Made by a program: the position numbers and the translations under genes
NCBI GenBank assembly: GCA_944324915.1
Contig: CALUYD010000002.1
Location: 124,001 to 188,000, forward strand
Length of the DNA: 64,000 bases
Origin: Candidatus Gastranaerophilales bacterium
GTDB lineage: Bacteria; Cyanobacteriota; Vampirovibrionia; Gastranaerophilales; Gastranaerophilaceae
Reading direction: 5' to 3'
Shown: in pieces, positions 16,552 through 29,224 of the stretch
Layout of the letters: the number at the start of each line of letters is the position of its first letter
Numbering within the stretch: position 1 is the first letter of the stretch
Notes under the pieces: generated by a model
Database searches by the model: none
Seen by the model: the letters and a program-made list of their open reading frames with translations, nothing else
What the model was told of the DNA's origin: nothing

Positions 16552-16591
16552 CTTTCATGTCTTATTTTTACGTATGGTATTGGATAACAGA

Positions 16592-18274
16592 ATGAAAAAG
16601 ATTTTTGGTTTTTCGCTTGTCGAAATCGTTGTAGCATTAATTATTTTTAGTGTCATAACTGCTGCTCTGGCACCAATTATTACAAAGAAATTAAAAAGCA
16701 ATAATGTAACAGTAGGGTCGTTAGGTGGAGGTTCAAGCAACACTAATTGTGATGCTTTTGGTCCTAATTGTAGTTTTTGCACTAGTGATACTTGTGTTGT
16801 ATGTGGTCTATCTTGTCTTGAAAGTCAAGCATTAGATATTCCGGGGTGTTCATGTAAGGAATGCGTAGAGCTTCACGGTGATAAATGTTTAAAATGTGGA
16901 TTAGATAAATGTATAAAATGTATAGGAGGATATTATACTCTTGATAATAATTGTACACAATGCCCTATTGGTAGCTATTGTGATGGAACGTATAAAAAGA
17001 CATGTAAGAATGGTGAATATAGTGATGTTGTAGGACTAGATGAATGCAAGGATTGTGAAAAAGGATATTATTGCACAGGTGGAATAAAAGGTGAATGTCC
17101 AGCTGGAAAATATTCTGAAAGCAAGAGTTCAAGTTGTACAAATTGTCCTATTGGATATTATTGTCCAGGAGCAAGTGATAAGATTTTATGCAGCGGGAAT
17201 AAATATCAACCTAATGAGGGTAAAAACAGTTGTTTAACATGTAATGCCGGAAGTTATGTATCAAATGATAGAACACAATGTCTAACTTGCGGTATTGGTT
17301 TTAAATGTCCCGGGGATGGAACAATGGTAGCATGTTCAACAGGAACATATCAACCATACACAGGGCAGAGCAGTTGTTTAACATGTCCTAGTGGTTCTGT
17401 TTGTAGTGGTGCAACAGTAACACAATGTCAAAAAGGAACTTATGCAACATCAACATCAAGCGTATGTGAACAATGTCCTAAGGGATATTATTGTACAGGT
17501 GGAAGTAATATTACAAAATGTGCTGATGGAACATACAATGATTTAGTAGGACAAAGTTCATCATCAGCTTGTAAAAGCTGCACAAGTGTTGTTGCAAATT
17601 GTAAGAGTTGTTTATTAACAACAGGACAATGCAGTGCATGTAATGATGGGTATGAATTGAAAAATGGAGTGTGTGAACAAGGAAGTAATGAGTTTAAATT
17701 CAGCTTCAACAATGCATTTATTGAAGAAAAAACTGACCAAAAGCATAAAATATATTTGAAGGCAACAGGAACTTTTAGGGCACTTAGTGATGCTAGTGGT
17801 ACAGTATTTGTTGTTGGAGGAGGCGGTGGAGGTGGTAGTAGTACACAAGGCGGCGGTGGCGGCGGTGGCGGTCGCACTATGAAAAGTAGCTTTACTTTTG
17901 TAAGAAACACTGACTATTCTGTAACAATTGGTGGTACTTCTGGCACATCTTGGTTTTCTTATATTCAAGCAGCTGGTGGTGGCAGTGGTACCGATAGTGG
18001 CGGAGGCGGAGGAGGAACAGGAAATGGTGGTTCAAAAGGTCAAGCCGGTGAAAATGGTGTAACTTTCGACGGTGAATGGTTCGGCGGAGGCGGCGGAGGT
18101 GGAAGTAATGGTTGGGCGCCACCAGGCGGAAATGGCGGTGCAGGCGCAGGTGGTTGGGATGGAAGAGGACAAGACGGCGTAGATAATACCGGTGGCGGTG
18201 GTGGAGGAAGCTCTTTGAATAGAGGTGCCACTGCCGGCGGAAGTGGTGTAGTTGTAATTGTTATAACAAAGTAA
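16592..18274 (+). CDS. prepilin-type protein fused to Cys-rich and Gly-rich extracellular domains
   Basis: A 560-residue surface protein. MKKIFG|FSLVEIVVALIIFS is a type IV prepilin leader with cleavage after Gly6 and the conserved Glu5 of the mature chain. Residues ~50-360 hold many Cys-x2-Cys repeats (CPIGYYCPG, CLTCNAGSY, CPKGYYCTGG) like eukaryotic EGF/GCC2-GCC3 ephrin-receptor-type repeats. From ~395 to the end a glycine-rich beta domain (long GGGG runs) resembles animal glycine-rich receptor domains. The last part is more GC-rich than its surroundings. An ATG at 16574 is possible but lacks a ribosome-binding site, and the shorter leader fits prepilins better. A role in adhesion or as a minor pilin tip is inferred. 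Confidence 0.85.
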   Translation: MKKIFGFSLVEIVVALIIFSVITAALAPIITKKLKSNNVTVGSLGGGSSNTNCDAFGPNCSFCTSDTCVVCGLSCLESQALDIPGCSCKECVELHGDKCLKCGLDKCIKCIGGYYTLDNNCTQCPIGSYCDGTYKKTCKNGEYSDVVGLDECKDCEKGYYCTGGIKGECPAGKYSESKSSSCTNCPIGYYCPGASDKILCSGNKYQPNEGKNSCLTCNAGSYVSNDRTQCLTCGIGFKCPGDGTMVACSTGTYQPYTGQSSCLTCPSGSVCSGATVTQCQKGTYATSTSSVCEQCPKGYYCTGGSNITKCADGTYNDLVGQSSSSACKSCTSVVANCKSCLLTTGQCSACNDGYELKNGVCEQGSNEFKFSFNNAFIEEKTDQKHKIYLKATGTFRALSDASGTVFVVGGGGGGGSSTQGGGGGGGGRTMKSSFTFVRNTDYSVTIGGTSGTSWFSYIQAAGGGSGTDSGGGGGGTGNGGSKGQAGENGVTFDGEWFGGGGGGGSNGWAPPGGNGGAGAGGWDGRGQDGVDNTGGGGGGSSLNRGATAGGSGVVVIVITK

Positions 18275-18305
18275 TAATTTTTTCATGTTATTTTTTAAAC
18301 CATAA

Positions 18306-18330
18306 GGAGGGCTTGCCCTCCCTTTTCTTT
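18306..18330 (+). terminator. Rho-independent terminator of the prepilin gene
   Basis: A perfect GGAGGGC-TT-GCCCTCC stem followed by a CTTTTCTTTTTT tail. Confidence 0.85.
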
Positions 18331-18368
18331 TTTAAAGAAATATTACAAAAAAAATATTTTTTGAAATA

Positions 18369-27661: not shown

Positions 27662-29224
27662 TTATTCAATTTCAACACAACTTATATTAAATGTATCATC
27701 TTTTTTCGTTGCTTCTTTTGCTAATTCGTTTGCAAAATCAATAAATTCTTTGTTCATATCATTTTTAATTATTGCAAAGCTAAATTTTTCATCTGGATGT
27801 TGAGATAAATAATCAGATAATTTTTTAATAACTTTTGTGTTTCCACTAACTCCTTTTGGATTACCCATAGGAAATATTTTTTCTCTTAATAAATATGAAT
27901 AGTTTAATTTGTTTGTGCAACTTAATAAAAGTGGTACTTTTAAAACATGTTTTATTAAAACATCTTTATCTATTTCACCTTCTTTAAAATATAATCTATC
28001 TTTATTTATAAATAATAATGCTCTAATATGTTCTGCAATAGTATCCGGTGATTGAGTGAACAATTGTGGTTGTTTAATGCAACTAGGTAAATATTCTTTC
28101 AAGGTTAACAAAGGTTTTCCATCTTCATCTTTTAATTTTTCATGGTTAATAACTCCGATAACATTCTCCACAATAGTATCTGGTGATTGATAGAATAATG
28201 AAGGTTGTTTAATACAACAAGGCAAATATTCTTTTAAATTTAGTAAAGGTTTTCCATCTTTATCTTTGAATTTTTTGTGGTCAACAACACCAACCACATT
28301 GCTCGCAACAGTATCAGGTGATAGAGAGAATAATTGTGGTCGTTTAATACAGGCAAGTATATATTTTTTTAATGTTAAAATAGGATTTCCATCTTCATCT
28401 CTGAATTTTTTGTGATTAATAATCTTTATAATATTATCTACAATGCTATCAGGTGATCGAGCGAATAATGACGGTTGTTCAACACAACAAGGCAAATATT
28501 CTTTTAGGGTTAGTAGGGGGTTTCCATCTTCATCTTTTAATTTTTCGTGGTTAATAACGTCAATGATATGACCTACAACAGTATCAGGTGATTGAGTGAA
28601 CAATTGTGGTTGCTCAATGCATAGAGGTAAATATTCTTTCAAAGTTAATAGTGGTTTTCCATTTTCATCTTTTAATTTCTCGTGCTCAACAACCCCAATA
28701 ACTTTATCTATAATAGTACTAGGTGATTGATAGAATAATTGTGGTCGTTCAATGCAACAAGGCAAATATTCTTTTAGGGTTGATAAAGCTTTTCCATCTT
28801 CATCTTTTAATTTTTCGTGCTCAACAACCCCATTAACTTTATCTACAATAGTATTAGGTGATTGATAGAATAGCTCTGGTTTCTCAATACAACAAGGTAA
28901 ATATTCTTTCAAAGTTAATAGTGGTTTTCCATTTTCATCTTTTAATTTCTCGTGCTCAACAACCCCAATAACATTATCTTGAGCTTTTTGAGTTAAAGTT
29001 TTAAATAGTTCAATTAATTTATTGGGGTCTTTTTCTTTTTTCATTTTTTTAAAAACATCAACATTTTTTCCAAAAGTGATGTTATCTAATATAAAAAACC
29101 TATTTATATTTGAAATATTATTAAAATGATTAAGAGAAAAATTCTGTTCATTTTTTAATTCTGATTTTTGATTTTTTAATCTGATATTTTGATTATAATT
29201 AAAATATATTGGCGAAATTCTCAT
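27662..29224 (-). CDS. protein with seven 45-residue tandem repeats
   Basis: A 520-residue protein of unknown function. Residues 1-86 are polar, Asn-rich and lack a signal peptide (MRISPIYFNYNQN...NITFGKN). Residues 87-401 contain seven 45-residue repeats with the core EHEKLKDEDGKPLLTLKEY followed by LPCCI..P.LF.QSPDTI. Residues 402-520 form a distinct C-terminal domain (INKDRLYFKEGEIDKDVL, SFAIIKNDMNKEF). Repeat 5 is the most divergent. The regular length and helix-forming spacing suggest an alpha-solenoid. The ATG has AAAAGGA. It is bracketed by two identical terminator hairpins. Confidence 0.8.
   Translation of the reverse strand: MRISPIYFNYNQNIRLKNQKSELKNEQNFSLNHFNNISNINRFFILDNITFGKNVDVFKKMKKEKDPNKLIELFKTLTQKAQDNVIGVVEHEKLKDENGKPLLTLKEYLPCCIEKPELFYQSPNTIVDKVNGVVEHEKLKDEDGKALSTLKEYLPCCIERPQLFYQSPSTIIDKVIGVVEHEKLKDENGKPLLTLKEYLPLCIEQPQLFTQSPDTVVGHIIDVINHEKLKDEDGNPLLTLKEYLPCCVEQPSLFARSPDSIVDNIIKIINHKKFRDEDGNPILTLKKYILACIKRPQLFSLSPDTVASNVVGVVDHKKFKDKDGKPLLNLKEYLPCCIKQPSLFYQSPDTIVENVIGVINHEKLKDEDGKPLLTLKEYLPSCIKQPQLFTQSPDTIAEHIRALLFINKDRLYFKEGEIDKDVLIKHVLKVPLLLSCTNKLNYSYLLREKIFPMGNPKGVSGNTKVIKKLSDYLSQHPDEKFSFAIIKNDMNKEFIDFANELAKEATKKDDTFNISCVEIE
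28022..28966 (-). repeat. seven 135-bp in-frame tandem repeats
   Basis: These encode the 45-residue units of the preceding protein. The units are highly similar at the DNA level (for example the cores near 28110, 28520 and 28680) and keep the frame, so copy-number change by slippage is possible. Confidence 0.85.

Follow-up and report, generated by a model that had tools for sequence, protein, structure and literature searches.

The window, the whole 64-kb stretch of DNA that was analysed (G000:C2:124001-188000), belongs to a 1.8-Mb draft genome of Candidatus Gastranaerophilales in 36 contigs, here termed G000. Its forward strand carries an open reading frame spanning 16574-18274 (+), in which 16592 was taken as the best start since the MKKIF beginning there is common to homologues. 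The reading frame at 16592-18274 (+) is genuine, and the following features were assigned.

16592..18274, + strand: modular prepilin coding sequence, 560 aa; another ATG lies upstream at 16574
16592..16609, + strand: prepilin leader MKKIFG, predicted cut after Gly6 before FSLVE (Pfam N_methyl over cut-off; read directly)
16610..16696, + strand: hydrophobic N-terminal helix of the mature pilin, near-identical among copies, proposed 5' exchange anchor (copy comparison)
16748..17674, + strand: Cys-rich stalk, residues 53-361, 46 Cys, ephrin-receptor/TNFR-like repeats (Pfam; Cys spacing)
17675..18271, + strand: variable tip domain, Gly_rich_2 family, residues 362-560, 199 residues (Pfam; tip alignment)
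17696..17974, + strand: predicted beta-sandwich (TNF-like) part of the tip (model strands; alignment to ALK and the Pam3 fibre)
17978..18241, + strand: glycine-rich loops, conserved GGGG motifs between variable segments (tip alignment; model)
18278..18304, + strand: conserved 3' element TTTTTTCATGTTATTTTTTAAACCATA, common to both tip types, proposed 3' exchange anchor (copy comparison)
18305..18333, + strand: hairpin and T-run, likely intrinsic terminator, with a locus-specific stem (read directly; copy comparison)

Judged by its sequence, the window protein is a prepilin-anchored modular protein. The prepilin leader proposed in an earlier note on this DNA was borne out by an N_methyl score of 23.5 bits against the Pfam cut-off of 21.2, and by the leader itself, MKKIFG/FSLVE, in which the Glu at +5 follows the class III signal peptide pattern. 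Homologues kept the leader, their N-terminal-covering matches beginning at query residue 1-6. A full-length model of low confidence (pLDDT 39), which was excluded from structure searches, placed a helix at residues 9-34. As a separate observation, Ala replaces Gly before the cleavage site (MKKIFYLA/FSLVE) in six of the seven 5' halves of family genes in G000 (C3 end, C7 start, C2 ends, C10 end, and C18 end), and Gly is found there in the window, C6, and C14 copies.

The stalk contains 15 CxxC pairs with a regular Cys spacing of 3-6-8/9-13/14 over residues 53-361. Ephrin_rec_like (PF07699) matched the window protein twice, at 17.8 and 21.0 bits, under the cut-off of 23.1 that was passed by the relatives P0005 and P0007 (81 and 24.3 bits). 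We scanned 43 complete relatives, most of them picked by the leader motif, against Pfam at E<=0.01, and found N_methyl in 31, Ephrin_rec_like in 29, TNFR_ELAPOR1 in 22, Lcl_C in 13, NCD3G in 10, Gly_rich_2 in 5, and Giardia VSP in 2. The receptor-like nature of the Cys repeats was therefore upheld for the ephrin-receptor and TNFR types, but not for the EGF modules that had also been suggested, since no EGF model was among the nine Pfam families listed for these 43 relatives. When the whole protein was compared by sequence with solved structures, it matched a mastigoneme protein (E 5.5e-05) and, weakly, Eph receptors. G000 holds two stalk types, so that copy counts vary with where the line is drawn.

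The tip has 66 Gly in 197 residues, and queried alone it scored 28.2 bits with Gly_rich_2 (PF21722, cut-off 24.3), which confirmed the glycine-rich domain described earlier; the whole protein scored 16.2, under the cut-off, and relatives reached 51.1. N_methyl and Gly_rich_2 (the latter from the tip-alone query) in one protein make up a modular-pilin architecture. The unusual base composition pointed out by the earlier note was real, the tip DNA having a GC content of 48.6% versus 29-35% in five other window genes, but it was mostly a matter of Gly codons. Without these the tip had 34.8% GC versus 25.5-32.1% in the same five genes, near the others, and Gly codons therefore explain most, though not all, of the anomaly.

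We then considered how such a protein would be exported. Profile searches placed no other prepilin peptidase, T2SSE, secretin, or N_methyl match within the 64-kb window, in agreement with the earlier observation that no pilus assembly genes are nearby. Elsewhere the genome encodes PilB-type, PilC-type, secretin, and peptidase genes, as suits a cargo or minor pilin: genes for a secretin, T2SSE with MshEN, and T2SSF adjoin on contig C10, all over cut-offs, and a prepilin peptidase gene lies on the same contig, also over cut-off (Peptidase_A24, 40.4 bits, with A24_N_bact and Peptidase_A24 in the same protein). The two conditions under which the earlier note would have given up its reading, a genome lacking this peptidase or homologues lacking the leader, therefore do not apply. 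Disulphides in the stalk are plausible because G000 also has a VKOR gene (73.8 bits). In a termite relative, pilA, pilB, pilC, pilT, and pilD have been reported, and the available portion of that report describes nothing like the window family (PMC5877343). Separately, a Cys-only relative without a tip domain (L094) and the gene for the prepilin peptidase were located about 3.5 kb apart (G000:C10:34349 and C10:30498).

The same machinery could be read differently, with the processed prepilins serving as type II secretion pseudopilins or being kept in the cell envelope instead of joining a retractile pilus. Both systems make use of the secretin, T2SSE, and T2SSF families, and neither the Pfam scan nor the full-length model (pLDDT 39) recognised a pilin-like globular domain between helix and stalk, both of which suit a pseudopilin. 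However, a long stalk ending in a large binding-type tip would make little sense in the periplasm, and the genome contains two additional T2SSE frames, 360 and 374 aa long, presumably of PilT size. We consider a pseudopilin or envelope role unlikely, and favour a protein carried on a pilus.

The window protein matched 15 places in G000, and at least nine genes with glycine-rich ends were dispersed among unrelated genes, with nine distinct ends seen. Looking for expanded paralogues, as the earlier note had advised, was thus rewarded. The relatives on C12 and C10 have other end types. Of the 72 contig ends, 14 fell inside family genes (seven 5' halves and seven 3' halves), and 11 of these 14 broken halves had an exact 77-mer in common with another copy. 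Shared 77-mers at contig ends are a sign of repeats that the assembler could not cross, and a genus-wide family with interchangeable heads would explain why draft genomes break at these genes.

Among the sampled genomes, related genes were present in 27 of 28 from the genus; outside it, they turned up in 5 of 30 from the rest of the family, in 4 of 22 from the rest of the order, and in none of 17 from the rest of the class. Of 27 genus genomes, 16 had Lcl_C matches (37 places in G009, 25 in G013) and 14 had Gly_rich_2 matches; no Lcl_C match was found by Pfam in G000. These Lcl_C counts were taken from Pfam because the local Lcl HMM was built from the same sequences. Among named genome contigs the sole match was Candidatus Gastranaerophilales CALUZF010000072.1. 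Two side observations were made in this survey. L057 (G020:C63) and L059 (G002:C11), listed as different species, had 6 mismatches in a 2329-nt alignment covering gene and flanks, and their Cys repeats differed by about 102 nt, a near-identity that reflects recent transfer, contamination, or repeat-number variation. In other genera of the family, Peptidase_S74 (endosialidase chaperone) ends the pilin-like L081:1492-2589 and L080:215-1819, scoring 52.6 and 54.9 versus 22 bits, with N_methyl listed for L081 only; this is another tail-spike module on a pilin.

To compare loci between species, seven G000 loci were paired by their flanks with loci of the sister species G008; both genomes are fragmented drafts, and of the seven broken genes in G000 four were paired, by synteny only. 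Flanks were about 83-100% identical at most loci, and tips about 40-75%. At C6, in 60-nt bins, identity was 83-98% in the flanks, 75-97% in the stalk, and 44-62% in the tip, and high identity resumed after the stop codon. Similar profiles were obtained at C10s, C19, and C18s, with flank similarity at C18s lost after about 880 nt; the downstream flank of C17 was weaker (57-78% over some 600 nt). At two of the seven loci, C15/L111 and C8/L112, both the body (32-53% identity) and the tip class differed, the gene ending in a glycine-rich domain in G000 and in an Lcl_C-like one in G008, with the leader side and the 3' flank kept. The Lcl_C-like assignment rests on L112 scoring 24.1 bits, below the cut-off of 34.9, and on alignments of L111, itself without a Pfam Lcl_C match, that run through its end both with L112 (61%) and with P0004, a protein scoring above the cut-off. 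Ends were seen, in these alignments, to have been replaced between the two species at fixed loci.

Orthologous Gly tips at five loci were 42.5-60.0% identical (mean 53.1), versus 49.0% on average across 40 cross-species pairs that were not orthologous (permutation p 0.06), and the orthologue was the nearest tip at only one of the five. The locus appears hardly to predict its tip, although it may retain some predictive value. In both comparisons that could be made, paralogues were closer than orthologues: C6-C3 at 94.4% versus 91.6%, and the G008 paralogues C163-C76 at 93.4% versus 85.9%. Upstream regions were unrelated between most copies, homology beginning at about the start codon.

These data bear on whether the tips simply diverge where they stand, by fast point mutation and indels under pressure from host, phage, or diet, with no exchange between copies. 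In the aligned tips invariant Gly motifs alternate with segments varying in length and sequence, a pattern that fits diversifying selection, and since orthologous tips were slightly closer than the others, some divergence in place is likely. As the whole explanation, however, we judge it rather unlikely. It does not account for tip and stalk classes differing at two of seven loci, for paralogous stalks within a genome being closer than orthologous ones, or for identity returning at once past the stop at most loci. An assembly or binning artefact, in which contigs made chimeric in repeats mimic tip exchange, has in its favour that both genomes are drafts breaking in this very family. Tip-to-3'-flank junctions nevertheless lie inside contigs in both species, copies share about 27 nt at the junction, much less than the 77-mer overlaps, and the pattern recurs at seven loci, so that we regard an artefact as very improbable. 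We also looked for a diversity-generating retroelement, and rejected it on finding no RVT_1 match, and no reverse transcriptase, in G000.

The reading that we prefer, exchange between copies, calls for constant sequence on either side of the tip. A stretch of about 27 nt directly after the stop (TTTTTCATRTTATTTTTTAAACCATA) is found in copies with either tip type and in both species; the C20 copy gave no clear match to this 3' element. Its core 20-mer, at 0-1 mismatch, was located six times in G000, each time at the 3' end of a family gene. When up to 3 mismatches were allowed, it gave 62 matches versus 36 for a reversed control in G000, and only 0-1 mismatch matches were used because those with 2-3 mismatches are mostly chance. 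A constant leader and stalk together with a constant 3' element are what recombination would need to swap tips while leaving the loci unmoved. The two anchors are unequal, the 5' one being nearly identical among copies and the 3' element only about 27 nt.

The fold of the tip was approached with a model of mean pLDDT 47.8, built from two aligned sequences, in the better part of which the last strand closes a beta-sandwich, a glycine-rich segment lying between. Foldseek found no match to this model in the PDB at E<=0.001, and a profile of the tip found none among solved structures by sequence. A second aligner gave ALK as the top structural match (Z 8.7, 106 residues, 3.4 A) and the Pam3 fibre 7ypx as the second (Z 8.0, 111 residues, 2.9 A). 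Of its 16 best matches, 15 were ALK/LTK or phage fibre, the ALK/LTK matches running from Z 8.7 to 5.1 over 101-124 residues with 16-20% identity in aligned residues; unrelated cupins came next at Z 5.0. Against a viral library, Foldseek returned 49 matches (E<=1e-3), mostly phage glycine-rich proteins, and a PHROG tail-fibre family was found in the tips of two of three relatives scanned (E<=1e-6). At Z values of about 8 from a weak model, these matches are suggestive of a TNF-like sandwich combined with a polyglycine fold.

This fold has counterparts in phages and in animals. Pam3 gp24 is described, in the available text, as recognising its receptor by a TNF-like and glycine-rich part that is hypervariable at its distal tip and resembles an ALK ectodomain (PMC9608196), and the window tip resembles it in its predicted sandwich and glycine-rich loops. 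T-even gp38 adhesins, of which a PGII sandwich on a beta-helix is the mark, have, as outlined in an excerpt of their description, a conserved Gly stem and a hypervariable distal tip (PMC12892980). Unlike fibres and gp38, the window protein has a prepilin-leader anchor and its gene sits on a bacterial chromosome; no gp38 chain, that of S16 included, was among the 50 structural matches listed by Foldseek or the second aligner for this weak model. A phage origin of the gene was rejected: two scans found no relative in viral contigs, and tblastn of the tip gave 0 matches in 50,697 phage records. As for the glycine-rich (TG) domain of ALK/LTK, it is the best fold match of the tip model, a likeness that need not mean descent, and the window protein has no kinase.

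Acquisition of an animal receptor-like protein from the host, as true mimicry of ephrin/TNF-receptor or ALK ectodomains, would give these likenesses a direct meaning, and it draws on the Ephrin_rec_like, TNFR_ELAPOR1, NCD3G, and VSP matches in relatives as well as on the ALK/LTK fold match. We consider it extremely unlikely. The glycine-rich fold also occurs in phage fibres and Pfam Gly_rich_2, leaving out Gly codons brings the GC content close to the values of other genes, and the Cys pattern seems simple enough to have arisen by convergence. There is no need to invoke the mimicry of animal domains suggested by the earlier note, since the glycine-rich fold belongs equally to phage tail fibres. 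What survives of its pilus-tip adhesin mosaic is the modular prepilin with animal-receptor-like Cys repeats and paralogues, as a minor pilin or cargo of machinery encoded elsewhere; it had missed that the family spans many loci and that its tips turn over.

Modular pilins are already a known concept, and one of them has a known role in adhesion; the available text of a survey counts 264 architectures among over 1,200 proteins (PMC8179133). Streptococcus sanguinis PilB and PilC, as described there, also join a short N-terminal pilin part to a binding module at a predicted tip position (PMC8179133). The present family differs in its dispersed paralogues, intervening Cys-rich stalk, two unrelated tip types, and apparent exchange between loci, and the commonest modules named in the excerpt of the survey include neither Gly_rich_2 or Lcl_C nor a Cys stalk (PMC8179133). 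The Lcl_C domain of the alternative tips is that of Legionella Lcl, whose C-terminal domain is, in the excerpt at hand, C-type-lectin-like and trimeric and binds sulphated glycosaminoglycans (PMC11162425). Lcl has a collagen-like stalk (PMC11162425, same excerpt), whereas the stalk here is a prepilin Cys stalk, and the window copy lacks Lcl_C.

Our literature search, over titles and abstract starts, found no description of this family. Neisseria pilE/pilS and Giardia VSP are likewise sets of many related surface-protein genes with a conserved and a variable part, subject to recombination or switching. Unlike these, the uncut copies here look complete and have their own upstream regions. When the silent-cassette arrangement of pilE/pilS was examined, the two uncut glycine-tipped copies in G000 (window and C6) were complete genes, and the seven others were cut by contig ends.

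Profiles and alignments established a PilD-type leader, a Cys-rich stalk, a Gly_rich_2 end, many paralogues, and differing tips; from these we infer that the protein is displayed at the tip of a pilus, that its variable loops bind a ligand, and that the changes come about by recombination. It is fairly probable, in our view, that the genes encode modular type IV (minor) pilins with binding tips turned over by recombination. The prepilin peptidase would cut the leader, and the processed protein would enter a type IV filament, probably as its cap, with VKOR-driven disulphides stiffening the stalk. The beta-sandwich and glycine-rich end would present variable loops to a ligand, which may be a gut glycan or the surface of a host or microbial cell, in the style of a phage fibre. 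Homologous recombination between the near-identical leader and stalk and the 3' element would replace tips or whole bodies at dispersed loci, and the lineage would alter its adhesin repertoire while the loci stay put. We propose, more tentatively, that this may be a form of dispersed adhesin diversification of which the papers searched give no account, in which complete modular-pilin genes at fixed loci swap non-homologous heads by recombination, giving combinatorial pilus tips with heads that are phage-fibre/ALK-like and glycine-rich or C-type-lectin-like.

Gastranaerophilales are common, uncultured gut bacteria related to cyanobacteria, and to our knowledge little is known of how they attach. 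If our interpretation is true, the interchangeable heads would be direct targets for finding their ligands, and bacterial pilins would share one receptor-binding fold with an animal receptor kinase and with the tail fibres of phages. Elsewhere in the window, a 520-aa protein encoded at 27662-29224 (-), to which Pfam gave only a sub-threshold HipN match, consists mostly of tandem repeats of about 46 residues (GVVEHEKLKDENGKPLLTLKEYLPCCIE...).
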